From Nitrospirota bacterium (GTDB lineage Bacteria > Nitrospirota > JAOUDF01): 37,221 bases of DNA. The notes beneath the pieces were generated by a model. It worked only from the letters and a program-made list of their open reading frames with translations, made no database searches and was not told the origin of the DNA. Made by a program: the position numbers and the translations under genes. Each line of letters begins with the position of its first letter. The first letter of the stretch is position 1. This document shows, in pieces, positions 2,370 through 10,998 of this stretch. The stretch is from the NCBI GenBank assembly GCA_029859385.1, contig JAOUDF010000003.1:1-37221 (forward strand). The letters run 5' to 3'.

Positions 2370-3443
2370 TTATTTGAACAACCGCTGATATTCGCCATAG
2401 CCCTCCTTTTCCAGCGCGTCTTTCGGGATAAAACGGAGGGCGGCCGAGTTGATGCAGTAACGCAGCCCTGCGGGCTGAGGACCATCGTTGAAGAGATGAC
2501 CGAGGTGCGAGTCGCCGCGGGCGCTCCTTACTTCAGTCCGCACCGTAAAGAGGGAACGGTCTGCCTTCTCCACCATATTCCCCGCTTCGAGGGGCTTGGT
2601 AAAGCTCGGCCATCCCGTCCCCGAGTCGAACTTGTCGGTGGAGGCAAAGAGCGGCTCGCCGGAAACGACGTCAACATAGATACCCTCCTTCTTATTGTCC
2701 CAGTATTCGTTGTCGAAAGGGGGTTCGGTGCCGTTCTCCTGGGTCACTTTATATTGCAGCGGGGTAAGTTTCGATTTCAGCTCTTCCCTGCCCATCTTTT
2801 TCCCTTCAGGATGCCCGCCCCAGGTCTTTTTCAGAAACTGGTCCCGCCCCGAGTTATACCGGTAATACTTGTAACGAACCGGGTTCCTCTTATGGTAGTC
2901 CTGGTGATAATCTTCGGCCCGATAGAACGTCGACGCCTTGATAATCTCCGTTGCAATCGGCTTGTTGAAGACCCCTGATTTACCCAAGGCAGCCTTTGAC
3001 TCCTCCGCCAGCCGCCGTTGCTCGTCGCTATGGTAGAAGATCGCCGACCTGTACTGACCTCCCCTGTCAACAAACGACCCACCCGCATCGGTGGGGTCGA
3101 TCTGCCGCCAGAAGACATCGAGAAGTTGCGCGTACGTCACCTTCGCCGGGTCATAGACCACCTCTATCGACTCCAGATGCCCGGTCCTCCCCGACGAAAC
3201 CTCATCATAGGCAGGGTTATCCTTATGACCGCCGGTGTAGCCGGAGATCACCTCCATGACGCCATCGAGCTTCTCAAAGGGGGGCTCCATGCACCAGAAG
3301 CAGCCCCCGGCAAAGGTGGCCTTTTCATATCTTTCAGGAACAGTCTTCATGGAATCAACCCTCTTGTTTTCATTGCTTTCAATATTGGTGCAGCCGCCAA
3401 GGATTGCGACAAATACCAGAAGTGTAAAAATCCATATTCTCAT
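2370..3443 (-). CDS. msrAB: Bifunctional peptide-methionine (S)-S-oxide / (R)-S-oxide reductase, predicted lipoprotein
   Basis: MsrA motif [12 protein letters not shown], MsrB motif DSGTGWPSF...[11 protein letters not shown]-terminal signal with lipobox LGGC. Confidence 0.93.
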
Positions 3444-3609
3444 GCCTATCTCACCCCATGGATTACCTTACCTATAAATATATCATCATTCCCCAATATC
3501 TCGTCCGAGTATGGATATAAGATATTCGCGATCTCTGGGGGGAGTATCCAATAAAGCCAACAGAGTCCATCTGTTATTACGTCGGCGGTTAAACAAGTGA
3601 AACATCCTG

Positions 3610-3672
3610 TCATGCCCGAGTGATTCTATCGGGCATCCAGTGGTATGAATTCCCGCTTTCCCGGAAACGACG
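3610..3672. repeat. Palindromic REP-like intergenic repeat
   Basis: gtcATGCCCGAgtgattctaTCGGGCATccag...attcCCGctttcCCGGaaacgac; resembles common bacterial interspersed palindromic repeats. Confidence 0.5.
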
Positions 3673-4086: not shown

Positions 4087-4773
4087 GTGAACAAATGTTT
4101 ATTGTTGGCAGCGATAGTGGTGCTTGGTATATCGAATATAGCCCATGCTGATCTGATCAATCGGGGCGGCGGTACATCAGCCCACGGCACATATAACCTG
4201 ATCTACGACACCGACCGCAACATCACATGGTATGACTACACCAATTCACAGGACACTTGGTGGAATCAGGTAGACTGGGCATCGAACCTGTCGGTCACAT
4301 TTGATGGCCAGACGTTTATCAACTGGCGCCTGCCGGAGACGGTAGACGGCGTTTATTCCTATAAATATAAATATGACAGTAGCGCCACCGCCGGCTTCAA
4401 CATTACCAGTAGCGAGCTTGGCCACCTGTATTACACAGAGCTTGGGAACTTGGGTATGTACGATACAAACGGACATCCTCGCGCTGCCGGAACTTACGGC
4501 CTTATAAACAGCGCCCCCTTCCAGAACTTGCTTTCTAACTCCTATTGGTCGGGCACGGAGCACGCGCTCACGCTTACTCCTGACGCGTGGATATTCTCTA
4601 CTTCTTTCGGTAACCAGTATATATACACGCAGGGCCTCTACTTACACGCTTTGGCTGTGCATGATGGCGATGTTGCAGCCGCGCCGCTGCCCGCGCCGGA
4701 ACCCACTACTTGGCTGCTGCTGGGAAGCGGTCTTGTCGGCTTGGTGGCATTTAGGAAGGTGATCAATCGTTAG
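4087..4773 (+). CDS. PEP-CTERM sorting-domain protein with DUF1566-like N-terminal region
   Basis: Signal peptide; IYDTDRNITWYDYTN...NWRLPETVDG; C-terminal PAPEPTTWLLLGSGLVGLVAFRKVINR. RBS AAGGAGGAG upstream. Confidence 0.87.
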   Translation: MNKCLLLAAIVVLGISNIAHADLINRGGGTSAHGTYNLIYDTDRNITWYDYTNSQDTWWNQVDWASNLSVTFDGQTFINWRLPETVDGVYSYKYKYDSSATAGFNITSSELGHLYYTELGNLGMYDTNGHPRAAGTYGLINSAPFQNLLSNSYWSGTEHALTLTPDAWIFSTSFGNQYIYTQGLYLHALAVHDGDVAAAPLPAPEPTTWLLLGSGLVGLVAFRKVINR

Positions 4774-4829
4774 CGGCGTATTACACGGCAACGTCTTCAC
4801 CCTTCGACCTAGCATAACCTGCTGCCTGA

Positions 4830-5033
4830 TTAATAATGCGGTGGGGGTACTTCCTCTGACAGGTCTTTGACGTCGGCGGGAATCAGGGCGCGAAGCTTTT
4901 GTTTGAGAAACTCGACGTCGCTGACAAGCTGGTCGATGGCCTTCTGCTGGGTGATAACCACCTCGTTAAGCTGCTGGATGGTCTCTTCATGCTGCATGAT
5001 ATGGAGTTCTATGTCGACAAGGCGGGATTCCAT
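4830..5033 (-). CDS. slyX: SlyX family protein
   Basis: Short coiled coil MESRLVDIELHIMQHEETIQQLNEVVITQQ... ending PPPHY, typical of SlyX. Confidence 0.85.
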   Translation of the reverse strand: MESRLVDIELHIMQHEETIQQLNEVVITQQKAIDQLVSDVEFLKQKLRALIPADVKDLSEEVPPPHY

Positions 5034-5161
5034 AAACCTCTGATCTCCTCTTTTCTTCGAGTTTAATCAAGCTTATCACACCCACGGCCGATTTTATAAT
5101 GGTCTTCTCTCATCCGTCTTTGGTATCTTGTGTAACATGAAGCCCATTGGAACCGACCGGC

Positions 5162-6382
5162 ATGTATAAAAAACTCGCCATTATCGTCATACTGATCGCC
5201 ATTGTGGCCGGAGCGGTGTACCTCATCAAAAAGCCCCAGGCCGCCGTCCCGGTGAAGACCCTCACTGTCGCAAAGGGCGATTTCACCATCTCCGTCTCGT
5301 CTGCCACCACTTCCACGGTAAAGTCGGAGCGTGAAATCAACATAAGCGCGCAGCGCAACGGGAAGCTCATTGCCTTTTCCCTTAATGAGGGTGATCTCGT
5401 AAAGAAAGGGCAGGTGGTCGCCCGCCTCGACAGCGAGGAGGCCGAACTCCAGGTACAGCAGGCCGGAGCATCGCTGCGGCAGGCAAAGGCGCGCATCGGG
5501 CAGATCCAGGCCGAAATCACCATGGCTCGGGAATCATCCATGGCCCAGGTCGCCGAGGCAAAGGCCGCGCTGGATGAAGCCGCCAGCGACCTCAAGCGAA
5601 AGCAGATTTTGTTCGAGCGCGGGATGATCTCCCGGCAGGAGATCGACGCGGCGGTCGGCGCGGAGGGCGGGGCCCGGGGTCGCTACGACAACGCCATTGC
5701 CAATCGCGCCCAGGAGCAGATAAAGGAGGACGAGCTGACAACGGCCCGGGCACGGCTGAGAGAGCTCGAGGCCACTCTCGGCCTGACCAGCCTTCAGGTC
5801 GACTACGGCACGATCCACGCCCCCATCAATGGCGTGGTATCAAAAAAGCTGGTGGAGCAGGGGGAATATGTCATGACCGGCGCTCCACTGTTCCGGCTCA
5901 CCGATCCCGGCAACCTCTATATCGAAGTCGCCATCGACGAGTTCGACGCAAAATACCTCAAGCTGGGGCAGGCCGCCAAGGTGCGGATGGACGCCTTCCC
6001 CGGTGAGCATTTTACGGGCAGGGTGACGCTGGTCTCCCCCATTGTCATCGGTGAAAAGCTCCAGACAAGGACCTTCCTGGTGCGGGTGATGCTCGACGAC
6101 CGGAGGATAAAGATAGTCCCCGGCATGTCGGCCGATGTGGAGATCATCGCCCAGGAGGTGAGCGGGGTGCTGTCGATCCCCACTTCATCCATCGTGGAAA
6201 AGGACCAGCGGAAGATGGTCTATGTAGTCGCAGAGGGCAAGGCCGTCCTGACTCCTGTCACCAGGGGTATTACCACATGGAACGCAACGGAGATCACCGC
6301 GGGGCTGACGGAAGGGCGAAAGATCGTCACCAATCCCGAGGTACTGAACCTGCGCGACAATGTCCGGGTGAAGGAACAGTAG
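5162..6382 (+). CDS. Efflux RND/MacA-type periplasmic adaptor (HlyD family)
   Basis: N-terminal TM anchor, biotinyl-lipoyl-like ISAQRNGKLIAFSLNEGDLVKKGQVVARLD, coiled coil, DYGTIHAPINGVVSKKLVEQGEYV. Start likely at the internal Met, 5162. Confidence 0.87.
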   Translation: MYKKLAIIVILIAIVAGAVYLIKKPQAAVPVKTLTVAKGDFTISVSSATTSTVKSEREINISAQRNGKLIAFSLNEGDLVKKGQVVARLDSEEAELQVQQAGASLRQAKARIGQIQAEITMARESSMAQVAEAKAALDEAASDLKRKQILFERGMISRQEIDAAVGAEGGARGRYDNAIANRAQEQIKEDELTTARARLRELEATLGLTSLQVDYGTIHAPINGVVSKKLVEQGEYVMTGAPLFRLTDPGNLYIEVAIDEFDAKYLKLGQAAKVRMDAFPGEHFTGRVTLVSPIVIGEKLQTRTFLVRVMLDDRRIKIVPGMSADVEIIAQEVSGVLSIPTSSIVEKDQRKMVYVVAEGKAVLTPVTRGITTWNATEITAGLTEGRKIVTNPEVLNLRDNVRVKEQ

Positions 6383-6441
6383 GCAGGCTGAAGAGAAAGG
6401 CTCGACAGTTCCTCAATAATTCTGTATCGTTATGTCGACGA

Positions 6442-6539
6442 GGGAGCGGATAGGGTCTGGTGGCTCTTGCGGACTTCAAATCCGTGGGCGGACATCCCCG
6501 CGATGGCCGCGGTGGGTTCGATTCCCACCCCTCCCGCCA
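6442..6539 (+). tRNA. selC: tRNA-Sec (anticodon UCA)
   Basis: Anticodon arm GCGGACTTCAAATCCGT matches bacterial tRNA-Sec (GGACUUCAAAUCC); long variable arm; T arm GTGGGTTCGATTCCCAC; encoded CCA. The acceptor stem appears to have one C-C mismatch. Confidence 0.93.
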
Positions 6540-7138: not shown

Positions 7139-8197
7139 ATGATGACCCAGAAAGAAAAGATACGCCTGACCCAACTGGCGTCCTGTTCCGGCTGAGCGGC
7201 CAAACTCAGTCTGAAAGACCTGTCCCAGGTGCTGGGGCAGCTGCCGAAAGGTGAAGACAACCCCAACGTCCTGGTCGGGCTTAACGACCCGGACGACGCG
7301 GGGGTTTACCGCCTTGACGACCGGATGGCCATGGTCCAGACGGTGGACTTCTTTCCGCCCATCGTGGACGACCCGTACGACTTTGGCGCCATTACGGCGA
7401 CCAACGCCATCAGCGATGTCTATGCCATGGGCGGCAGGCCCGTCACCGCGCTGAACCTGACGGCCTTTCCGGAGAAGGAGCTGGGAAGCGGCATACTTGA
7501 TAAAATACTCAAAGGCGGCCACGACAAGGCGGCCGAGGCAGGGGTCGCCGTCATCGGCGGACACTCCATAAACGACAAGGAAATAAAGTACGGCATGGCG
7601 GTGACCGGCCTCGTCGAGATCGAGAAGATGGTCACCAAGGGGGGTGGACGACCGGGAGATATACTGTACCTCACCAAACCCCTGGGAGTGGGGATCATTG
7701 CAACGGCGGCCAAGCGGGACCTGGCCCCGGAGAAGGCATTGAAAAAAGCCATCAAATCGATGAGTGAGCTCAACAGGGGCGCAGCGGAGGCCATGGTAGC
7801 CGCGGGAGTGCGGGGTGGAACCGACGTTACGGGATTCGGCCTTCTGGGGCACCTGTGGGAGATGCTGGTCGCGGGCAAGGTGGGGGCCGAGATATCGGCC
7901 TCGGCGATACCGGTGTTCGAAGAGGTCTGGGACCTGGCGTTGGCCGAGATAATGCCCGGCAGGACAAAGGTCAACCTCGATTATCTGAGCGAGCATATCG
8001 TCTTCGAAGGCAGGGTCCCGCCGCAGACCCGGCATATCCTCTGCGACCCGCAGACGTCGGGCGGGCTGCTCATCGCGGTTCCCGAGGCATCGAGAGAGAT
8101 ATTTCTGCGCGAGGCCGAAGCCCGGGGCGTAAAGACGGTGGCCGAAATAGGCCGGTTAGTCAAAGACAAGGAATGCAGGATAAGGGTGACGCCATAA
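7139..8197 (+). CDS. selD: Selenide, water dikinase, selenocysteine-containing (in-frame UGA at 7193-7195)
   Basis: MMTQKEKIRLTQLASCSGUAAKLSLKDLSQVLGQLPKGEDNPNVLVG...; reading through TGA joins in frame to the 7229-8197 ORF (FGLLGHLWEM, CDPQTSGGLL). Cys/Sec at this site is the known SelD catalytic residue. Confidence 0.93.
7220..7240 (+). promoter_or_regulatory. Candidate bacterial SECIS hairpin
   Basis: CTGTCCCA-GGTGC-TGGGGCAG: 8 bp stem (one G-U) with GG in the loop; loop begins 32 nt after the TGA. Confidence 0.65.
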
Positions 8198-9597
8198 TGG
8201 AACAGAAAACCAGCAGACAGGCCGAGTTGAGAAGGCTTCCCAGCGTGGAGGAGGTCCTTCAGGTACCGGCGCTGGCACCGTGGATAGAAACTCTTTCGCG
8301 GGCCGTCGTGACGGCGGTCGTGCGGGACCAGCTTGCGTCCATACGGAAAGCGGTCGTCGATGGCGCCGACTGCCCCGATGAGTCCGCCATCCACGGCCGA
8401 ATCGCGGCCGCCCTGAAGCAGAAATCACTCTCCACCCTCAGGCCGGTCATCAACGCCACCGGCGTTATCCTTCACACCAATCTCGGTCGCGCCCCCCTTT
8501 CGAAAGCAGCCATTCAGGCGTTGACGGAGGTGGCAGCAGGGTACAGCAATCTCGAACTCGATCTCTCCTCGGGAAAGCGTGGAAGGCGCGCGCCCTTTAT
8601 GGAAGAGCTGGTCCGTCACCTCACCGGTGCAGAGTCGGCGCTGGTGGTCAACAACAATGCGGCTGCCCTCCTTTTGGCCCTGGGAACTCTGGCCAATGGC
8701 AAAGAGGTAATCATCTCGCGGGGAGAGCTTGTGCAGATCGGGGGCGGGTTCCGGATACCCGACATACTCCAGCAGAGCGGGGCAAAGCTCAAGGAGGTCG
8801 GCACCACCAACCAGACCTACGCATCGGATTACGAAAAGGCCATCGGCCCCGATACCGCCATGATCCTCAGGGTTCACCACAGCAACTTCAGGATGCTGGG
8901 GTTCACCCATCAGGCCGAGCGCCGCGATCTGGCAGCCCTGGCGGAGCGGCACAACATCCTGCTTGTCGAAGACCTGGGAAGCGGCGCCGTGGCCGACACC
9001 GCCGCCTTCGGCATGGAACACGAACCGACCCCGGCCGACTCGCTGGCAGCGGGGGTACATCTGGTTTGCTTCAGCGGCGACAAGATTCTGGGCGGCCCCC
9101 AGGCGGGGATACTGGCCGGGAGAAAGACGCTGGTCGAGCAGATGCGCAGGCACCCGCTCCTGCGGGCCATAAGGGTCGACAAGCTACAGGCCGCGGCCCT
9201 TCAGGCGACCCTTATCGACTATCTCAAGGGTGAACCGGAGAAGCGCAACCCCGTCTGGCAGATGTTGTCGGCCACGATTGATTCGCTGCGCTTACGGGCG
9301 GAGGAGCTGGCGGCGACACTGAAGAACGCGGGGATTGCAGCGGAGGCGACTCCCTGCACCAGCGCCATGGGAGGCGGTTCGCTGCCGGAGCAGGATATGC
9401 CGTCATACGGCGTAACCGTTACTCCTGCCTACCCGGTTAATGAGGAGGAAGAAAAACTGCGCACCGGTGAGACGCCGATCATGGCGCGGATAGAGGAAGA
9501 CAGGCTGGTGCTGGATTTGCGGACGGTGCTGCCGGGGCAGGATGATACGCTGGTCAAGGCGCTTTGTGACAGTTTGTCGGAAGCACCGTTGCGATAG
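8197..9597 (+). CDS. selA: L-seryl-tRNA(Sec) selenium transferase
   Basis: RPVINATGVILHTNLGRAPLS, VVNNNAAALLLAL, DLGSGA, FSGDKILGGPQAG. ATG overlaps the selD stop (TAATG); the ORF track start at 7855 is an upstream extension. Confidence 0.95.
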   Translation: MEQKTSRQAELRRLPSVEEVLQVPALAPWIETLSRAVVTAVVRDQLASIRKAVVDGADCPDESAIHGRIAAALKQKSLSTLRPVINATGVILHTNLGRAPLSKAAIQALTEVAAGYSNLELDLSSGKRGRRAPFMEELVRHLTGAESALVVNNNAAALLLALGTLANGKEVIISRGELVQIGGGFRIPDILQQSGAKLKEVGTTNQTYASDYEKAIGPDTAMILRVHHSNFRMLGFTHQAERRDLAALAERHNILLVEDLGSGAVADTAAFGMEHEPTPADSLAAGVHLVCFSGDKILGGPQAGILAGRKTLVEQMRRHPLLRAIRVDKLQAAALQATLIDYLKGEPEKRNPVWQMLSATIDSLRLRAEELAATLKNAGIAAEATPCTSAMGGGSLPEQDMPSYGVTVTPAYPVNEEEEKLRTGETPIMARIEEDRLVLDLRTVLPGQDDTLVKALCDSLSEAPLR

Positions 9598-9650
9598 AAC
9601 GGCTGGATCAGCCACGGCTGTAAGGAGTTGGCTGCATCCATTTGTTGAGC
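9594..9650 (-). other. attC-like integron recombination site (A), R' half supplied by sequence at the selA 3' end
   Basis: Minus strand GCTCAAC-AAATGGATgCAGCC...GGCTGATCCAGCCG|TTCTATC: R'' box, paired GGAT(g)CAGCC/GGCTGATCC arms with an extrahelical G, crossover G|TT. The native R' (from the cassette A start) would be GTTGGGC. Confidence 0.7.
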
Positions 9651-9682: not shown

Positions 9683-10414
9683 TCATGAGGGTTGACCCTC
9701 GTGCAGCTTTCTGAGTTTGGCCAGCCACGTCTCGAATGTTAGGTCGACGGTCAAGTCAAATTCTGTCTCTGCGAGATACGTCCATTCCATACCCACTGGT
9801 ACCGTCTTCTTTCGCACTTCATTCCCTTCGTTAATCTCCGCCCACATCTCCGTGGGACATTTGTCAGATAGGACTTGCATTAGTTCACGAATCAGCTTGA
9901 AGATGATTGTCGCATATTCCATTACTTCATCAAACGATGCTATGTAGCCTCGATGTATGACTTTGTTTCGAAGTTGCGGGATTTTCTCTGATAACTCGAA
10001 CGACTCACCCGCTATAGCCGGAAACAAAAAGAGAAAGGCGCCAAACTGCCGCTCCGATTGGGCTTTCACATGCTTCCACGATACATCGAAAAGCGAAGAA
10101 GATAATCCAAGCTTGCGATATGCGACTCTTAGGAAGAACTCATATGCGCGCTCAAGAGCTGCCGAAAAGGTAGATACAGCTTCATTCGTGTAATGATCAA
10201 GAAGAGCGTGACAACCGGACTGGAAAAGTACATGATGTTTGCGACTTATATGCACAACAGCAGTGGTGTGACCCTTTTCGCAGGTGAGATAGACTATTCC
10301 ATTGTCGTCCATTTCAGCGTAGTAGAATAACCTAACAGGTGTCGACTCGCCTGTAGTGGTCAGCTTGTTAGCTGCTTCTTTCATGCATATCACGCAAGAT
10401 CCCGTCGCCTTCAT
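9683..10414 (-). CDS. Integron-cassette-like protein with zinc-ribbon-like N-terminus and HEPN-like domain
   Basis: CVIC...CEKGH metal-binding-like residues, LRNKVIHRGYI (R-x4-H HEPN motif) in a helical context. Lies between two attC-like sites. Confidence 0.65.
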   Translation of the reverse strand: MKATGSCVICMKEAANKLTTTGESTPVRLFYYAEMDDNGIVYLTCEKGHTTAVVHISRKHHVLFQSGCHALLDHYTNEAVSTFSAALERAYEFFLRVAYRKLGLSSSLFDVSWKHVKAQSERQFGAFLFLFPAIAGESFELSEKIPQLRNKVIHRGYIASFDEVMEYATIIFKLIRELMQVLSDKCPTEMWAEINEGNEVRKKTVPVGMEWTYLAETEFDLTVDLTFETWLAKLRKLHEGQPS

Positions 10415-10432
10415 TATTCCTTATCCATCATT

Positions 10433-10485
10433 GCCCAACGTATAGCTAGCGCCAGAATGGCGCGAATTTGAGCGAATTGTTAAGC
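10433..10485 (-). other. attC-like integron recombination site (B)
   Basis: Minus strand GCTTAACAATTCGCTCAAATTCGCGCCATTCTGGCGCTAGCTATACGTTGGGC: RYYYAAC...GTTRRRY boxes, AACAATTCGxTCAA as in aadA-type attC, central GCGCCA-TTC-TGGCGC hairpin; the upstream gene's TAA stop lies within the R'' box. Confidence 0.8.
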
Positions 10486-10905
10486 ATGACCTTCTTTTGA
10501 TCCTGCGAAGTAACCGACTGCATAGCCGATTGCTCCAAGGACAAAACAATATACTGGAAGTACCGCAAAAATTAATGCGCTTGTAGAGCTTCCAGTTGCT
10601 GTACCGTTAATATCGAAATACCACTGAATATGAATAAACCACATTAACGGAATAACTGGAACAAGAAACCCTTTTATAGCTGAGATATGTCGTTTTTCCC
10701 CTTTCCTTCCAGCCAGTATGGTCCTTATGAAAATAAGAATTAACGGTAAAAGTACCCAAAGTGAGCCAATATTGGGAACCACATTGGCAAAAAACAAACA
10801 AGCAATTGCTGTGACAGTAATGATTACCTGGATAAATTTTGTATCAATGCGTTCCATGTTCTGATGCCATATCAACAAGTTATTAGATAAACGGAACCAT
10901 AGCAC
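10480..10905 (-). CDS. Hypothetical small membrane protein (cassette-like gene)
   Basis: About four predicted hydrophobic segments (IQVIITVTAIACLFFANVV, LWVLLPLILIFI, FLVPVIPLMWFI, LIFAVLPVYCFVLGAIGYAVGYF). Start uncertain (GTG 10905 or ATG 10857). AT-rich relative to neighbours. Confidence 0.6.
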   Translation of the reverse strand: MLWFRLSNNLLIWHQNMERIDTKFIQVIITVTAIACLFFANVVPNIGSLWVLLPLILIFIRTILAGRKGEKRHISAIKGFLVPVIPLMWFIHIQWYFDINGTATGSSTSALIFAVLPVYCFVLGAIGYAVGYFAGSKEGHA

Positions 10906-10998
10906 TAGAACATCGAATTATCAATCCATTAGCAAAAACAAAACCCGTTGGCGATACCGCCGCCCCTGGCTACTATTTGTGATTACCACTACGCCCGT

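Follow-up and report, generated by a model that had tools for sequence, protein, structure and literature searches.

A zinc-ribbon/HEPN protein encoded in an integron cassette is a candidate single-gene anti-phage defence

The DNA analysed here (the window) is a stretch of 37,221 nucleotides from a Nitrospirota bacterium. It carries a cassette array between selA and the gene of an MFS transporter, and the minus-strand order is MFS gene, promoter-like site, 24-base block, cassette 1, attC 10485-10433, HEPN gene, attC 9650-9594 and selA. The features are as follows.

10896-10924 (-): candidate cassette promoter (Pc), TTGATA-17-TATGGT, a consensus scan match only
10874-10897 (-): attI-like block of 24 bases, GTTCCGTTTATCTAATAACTTGTT, which recurs unchanged in the attI region of an integron on contig C363
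10480-10857 (-): cassette 1, an ORF for a hydrophobic, likely membrane protein of 125 aa, its stop codon inside the R'' box of the attC
10433-10485 (-): attC between cassette 1 and the HEPN cassette, best covariance-model match and sole strict motif match in the window
9683-10414 (-): gene for the zinc-ribbon/HEPN protein, an ORF with its ATG at 10414 and its stop at 9683, 243 aa
10250-10414 (-): N-terminal module, residues 1-55, C2CH zinc-ribbon-like (C7, C10, C45, H49), from ligand conservation and predicted strands
9860-10240 (-): HEPN-like helical region, residues 59-185, from the AlphaFold2 model and the best Foldseek matches (2q00, 2hsb and other HEPN entries)
9953-9970 (-): RNKVIH (residues 149-154), the Rx4H motif of the predicted RNase active site, from conservation and position at a helix end
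9594-9650 (-): degenerate attC that closes the HEPN cassette on the selA side, second-best covariance-model match

The selA gene is intact (TIGR00474 positions 1-453 of 455), and its stop codon is overlapped by the R' half (GTTCTAT) of the outer attC. It belongs to a selenocysteine gene cluster with tRNA-Sec and a SelD-like gene, at 7139-8197 (+) with 6441-6538 and 8194-9597. The SelD-like gene reads through an in-frame TGA (ASCSGU) and is thus probably itself a selenoprotein gene.

A plain attC motif scan of the window was not significant alone (1 found versus 0.6 in shuffles), an Rfam search gave no attC-type match, and each window attC folded alone had an energy that was not significant (z -1.0 to -1.9). 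Since single-site folding gave no significant energy, we trained a covariance model on seven attC sites, all outside the window to avoid circularity, and searched the window with filters off. RNAalifold on the seven sites recovered the classical layout, with an R''/R' box, a spacer and an L''/L' box with an unpaired base, and both-sided changes in 7/14 pairs. The two cassette ends gave the two top matches (20.8 bits, E 0.0054, and, for the degenerate site, 16.5 bits, E 0.062), and the third-best match in the window reached 11.9 bits, E 0.89; all these E-values are rough, as the calibration was short. The attC-flanked cassette proposed in an earlier note from the sequence alone is thereby confirmed with an independent model, and carriage of the HEPN gene in a cassette is well supported.

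No integrase match was found beside the array on contig C174; the same genome has one integrase gene, on contig C363. The locus is thus an integrase-less array and not a complete integron. The integron on C363 (2087-4829) consists of the integrase gene, an attI region and two cassettes. Its integrase gene (TIGR02249, 251.9 bits, below the cut-off of 265) runs from 3726 to beyond 4829, truncated where the contig stops, and a fragment on contig C352 may continue it. The attC sites of this integron lie at 2999-3064 and 2087-2155, and its cassettes encode proteins of 180 aa and 275 aa without Pfam matches. The window promoter candidate TTGATA-17-TATGGT aligns with TTGACA-17-TTAATG of the C363 integron, and an exact search of the genome for the 19-mer core of the 24-base block gave two copies and no more, against none for the reversed control. 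The promoter/attI-like block as a whole occurs twice in the genome, at 10874-10924 (-) of the window and 3576-3650 (-) of C363, with 24 identical bases. As the block equals the attI region of the C363 integron, the window array has a promoter/attI-like block of its own. Together, the locus is a two-cassette, integrase-less integron array with the HEPN gene in the second cassette; the protein of cassette 1 has no Pfam, NCBIfam or PADLOC match above cut-off.

The translation of the HEPN gene reads C7xxC10 ... C45xxxH49, with LRNKVIHRG at residues 148-156. Both motifs singled out in the earlier note are therefore present in the ORF, and their conservation in 41 aligned relatives, which share 22-66% identity with the window protein, places them beyond chance. 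Compared with a 71%-identical relative in an Archangium MAG, the gene has dN ~0.19 and dS ~1.30, a ratio of ~0.14, so that the frame is under purifying selection. The gene has a G+C content of 46.9%, against 38.7% in the ORF of cassette 1 and 58.0% across the window.

Searches with Pfam, NCBIfam and PADLOC models gave the window protein no match above cut-off, and PADLOC-DB v2 offers no defence family at significance. The protein does match phrog_19381 of PHROGs v4 (E 1.9e-43), a family without assigned function there, as do all 12 members tested. About 45 relatives were found, on prophage contigs, in SPbeta phages, on plasmids and in other integrons. By source they comprise three genome contigs, seven plasmid records, phages SPbetaL4 and L6, and 32 loci of viral collections, where many contigs are predicted phages and not isolates; these loci came from an alignment search, while a single-sequence search gave none. 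Among 396 genomes of the phylum searched, a further five have a relative, in one case a degraded fragment. The relative L046, used as a DNA probe, had no match in E. coli.

An attC adjoins the relatives L002 (the Archangium MAG), L004 and L029 (genome G113), a degraded copy (L033) and, weakly, L037; the first four supplied sites to the attC model, so that only L037 and the window count as independent. The tree groups the window protein with L002, L003 and L037 (98/92). About three changes of the cassette label are needed on the tree, and well-supported branches force two of them, a pattern suggestive of repeated capture or loss. The Archangium contig (L002, 1-3468) holds a short cassette array with two attC sites and a SEC-C-like protein of 290 aa (named by eye), and just upstream of its HEPN gene lies a small ORF pair that, by eye, resembles a toxin-antitoxin module. 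On a Methylobacter plasmid (L014, 3513-5507) the HEPN relative is apparently split by an IS630-family transposase, a natural knock-out.

Among the neighbours of the relatives, no partner or antitoxin family recurs in unrelated loci, which favours a one-gene system. The neighbours common to several relatives are phage structural genes, resolvases and integrases. Elsewhere the gene keeps company with a Mrr restriction endonuclease (L029), HigB toxins (L003 and L029) and PIN proteins (L031 and L032). The majority of the neighbourhoods do not have the form of a classical defence island. The earlier note had looked to integrons or defence islands as the setting of homologues; the link with integrons recurs, and some relatives have Mrr, HigB or PIN genes for company. 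Our results suggest that the window gene is a good candidate for a one-gene anti-phage defence, and the note's broader reading as a defence or toxin protein was a reasonable inference.

Toxin genes are common integron cargo, and an alternative is that the protein is an RNase toxin for dormancy or growth arrest, with or without an antitoxin, which stabilises its element or slows growth under stress and has no specific anti-phage role. The HigB genes near two relatives and the PIN genes near two others are in line with this, and a review of HEPN proteins proposed a dormancy role for those borne by integrons (PMC3710099). However, the gene has no recurrent partner, antitoxin or other, and the cassette is a single ORF. 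We consider the toxin reading unlikely.

The gene could also serve its own mobile element, as a phage-borne regulator, a host-takeover RNase or a counter-defence protein. Many relatives sit in prophage-type contigs, and several adjoin tail or tape-measure genes. Relatives are nevertheless carried by plasmids and by integron cassettes that have no phage genes. In the SPbeta group, the gene is flanked by yonG and yonJ and is oriented against the adjoining genes, and it is present in 2/24 records with the same flank (L4 and L6), the others examined having different small genes there. Since most SPbeta-group records with this site lack the gene, it is not needed for the phage cycle, and we regard service to the element as distinctly improbable. 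The yonG-yonJ interval is a variable cargo slot (4766-6024 in SPbetaL4, L010), and the same slot in L075-L080 holds other small unknown genes.

We then return to the preferred reading, a defence RNase, and to the protein itself. AlphaFold2, run on a 32-sequence alignment, gave a confident model with a pLDDT of 92.4 for the whole protein and a pTM of 0.86. The model begins with a four-strand N-terminal module (strands 2-5, 31-35, 40-44 and 50-55), followed by helices, of which helix 144-153 ends in RNKVIH. Foldseek against the PDB placed HEPN entries first, second and eighth, with Csm6, AbiV and 1o3u lower down; 2q00 had a probability of 0.99 with a TM by target of 0.62-0.64, and 2hsb 0.94 with a TM of 0.65, while no E-value fell below 0.001 (E at least 0.07). 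A search of a viral fold library with the predicted model was uninformative.

HEPN domains are described by an Rx4-6H motif ending helix 3, a polar residue after the R and an acidic residue in helix 2 (PMC3710099), and all of these hallmarks are present in the window protein. R149, N150 and H154 are unchanged in 41/41 aligned relatives, and E88, E121, R122, G125 and G156 are likewise invariant. The acidic residues of helix 76-101 are E88 (41/41) and E92 (40/41). The Ex3[KR] motif, found in many but not all HEPN families (PMC3710099), occurs as E92x3[KR]96 in 27/41. The HEPN identity of the window protein is well supported, though its fold matches fall short of significance: the HEPN-like domain predicted from the sequence reappears as a helical core with RNKVIH at a helix end, and RNxxxH is invariant among homologues. 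Core helices 2 and 3 are separated by two inserted helices with W113-K114 and S120-E121-R122-Q123-G125, which we read as a family signature.

RNase activity is predicted from the motif residues. Some HEPN families have lost activity (PMC3710099), and a zinc ribbon suggests nucleic-acid binding, so that the protein might instead have a HEPN fold without catalysis and bind nucleic acid or act as a regulator; the invariance of R, N and H in 41/41 relatives across deep divergence would not be expected of an inactive domain and makes this very unlikely. Least credible of all is that the protein is no HEPN protein but some other helical fold in which RxxxxH arose by chance; for this reading, the non-significant Foldseek E-values and the lack of a Pfam HEPN model above cut-off can be cited, against the lead of HEPN entries in the fold search and the agreement of motif position, polar residue and acidic helix-2 residue with the HEPN description.

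The full set C7/C10/C45/H49 is present in 38/41 aligned relatives. In the other three, T replaces H49 (L057), or the N-terminal ligand residues are lacking in the alignment (L008 and L015). The ligand residues point to a C2CH module that probably binds zinc. A metal-sensing front end, as the earlier note had it, is a reasonable inference from these residues alone; the putative zinc module may instead be structural, or may bind nucleic acid or a phage protein.

We propose a mechanistic model in which the protein is a standalone HEPN RNase with a zinc-ribbon sensor, a single-gene anti-phage cargo whose RNase is released by a trigger. A self-contained effector RNase that brings its own sensor would agree with the single-gene form, the intact RNase motif and the carriage by prophages, plasmids and integrons, and we hold this reading to be probable, if well short of certain. 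The protein presumably forms a HEPN homodimer, in which R149, N150 and H154, together with the conserved acidic residue of helix 76-101 (E88 or E92), would make up an RNase site that needs no metal. Keeping the RNase off, and recognising the trigger of phage infection, would fall to the zinc-ribbon module and the W-K...SERQ-G helices peculiar to the family; this trigger could be a phage protein or a nucleic acid. The freed RNase would then cut cellular RNA, so that the infected cell stops making phage. Carried by prophages, plasmids and integrons, the gene would keep competitors out.

Going further, it is tempting to speculate that phrog_19381 is an undescribed, self-contained immune family, in which a C2CH ribbon would detect a phage component directly and set free the HEPN RNase of the same polypeptide, with the gene passed between integrons, temperate phages and plasmids of several phyla. 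We offer this wider proposal tentatively, as plausible and somewhat more doubtful than probable. The zinc-ribbon/HEPN family, and its occurrence on mobile elements of three kinds, appear undescribed in the open-licence papers to which our literature search was confined, and an earlier description is therefore possible. Two papers (doi 10.1126/science.ads0915 and ads0768), by their titles, reportedly treat integrons as stores of phage-defence genes.

The family is unnamed in Pfam and NCBIfam and has no model in PADLOC-DB v2, yet mobile elements of three kinds carry it as lone cargo in distant bacteria. Being one gene of ~240 aa with clear predicted catalytic residues, it is easily testable. If the proposal is true, it would add a minimal sensor-plus-RNase defence protein and a further instance, beyond Vibrio, of phage-defence genes stored in integrons.

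HEPN proteins have been known as integron cassette products since 2013, from Vpc_cass2 (PDB 3JRT; PMC3548836, PMC3710099). Vpc_cass2 shares with the window protein its cassette carriage and a four-helix bundle with Rx4-6H, whereas its description contains no zinc ribbon and it is known from Vibrio, Shewanella and Moritella. 3JRT was absent among the 50 fold matches listed, and no chain in the PDB sequences, 3JRT included, matches the window protein or the family profile. The nearest Pfam HEPN families by score are HEPN_RiboL-PSP (PF18735) and HEPN_MAE_28990 (PF18737), but all matches fall below the Pfam gathering scores and the window protein has no endoRNase L-PSP domain. As homology at threshold was lacking, we rejected the names Tha, 3JRT-type and RiboL-PSP HEPN for the family.

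An attached sensor domain controlling a HEPN RNase is also found in Csm6/Csx1 and in DS-11, a CBS-HEPN protein (DefensePredictor, PMC13092281). In these, nucleotides are sensed by CARF or CBS domains, while the sensor of the window protein would be a C2CH ribbon. Csx1/Csm6 profile matches were weak but consistent, in 7/32 relatives. Tha, a HEPN RNase of S. aureus prophages with the catalytic motif RNSIMH, is activated by phage tail proteins (PMC11087260). Unlike the window protein, Tha has 301 aa, is accompanied by an inhibitor gene, ith, and has no zinc module in its description. As a homologue it was rejected, since an hhalign profile comparison with Tha-1 of phage 80alpha gave a probability of 0.2, and any Tha-like working would thus be by analogy only. 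Tha is likewise a standalone prophage HEPN RNase with a separate N-terminal region proposed to take the signal, and it is the best precedent for the mechanism proposed here.
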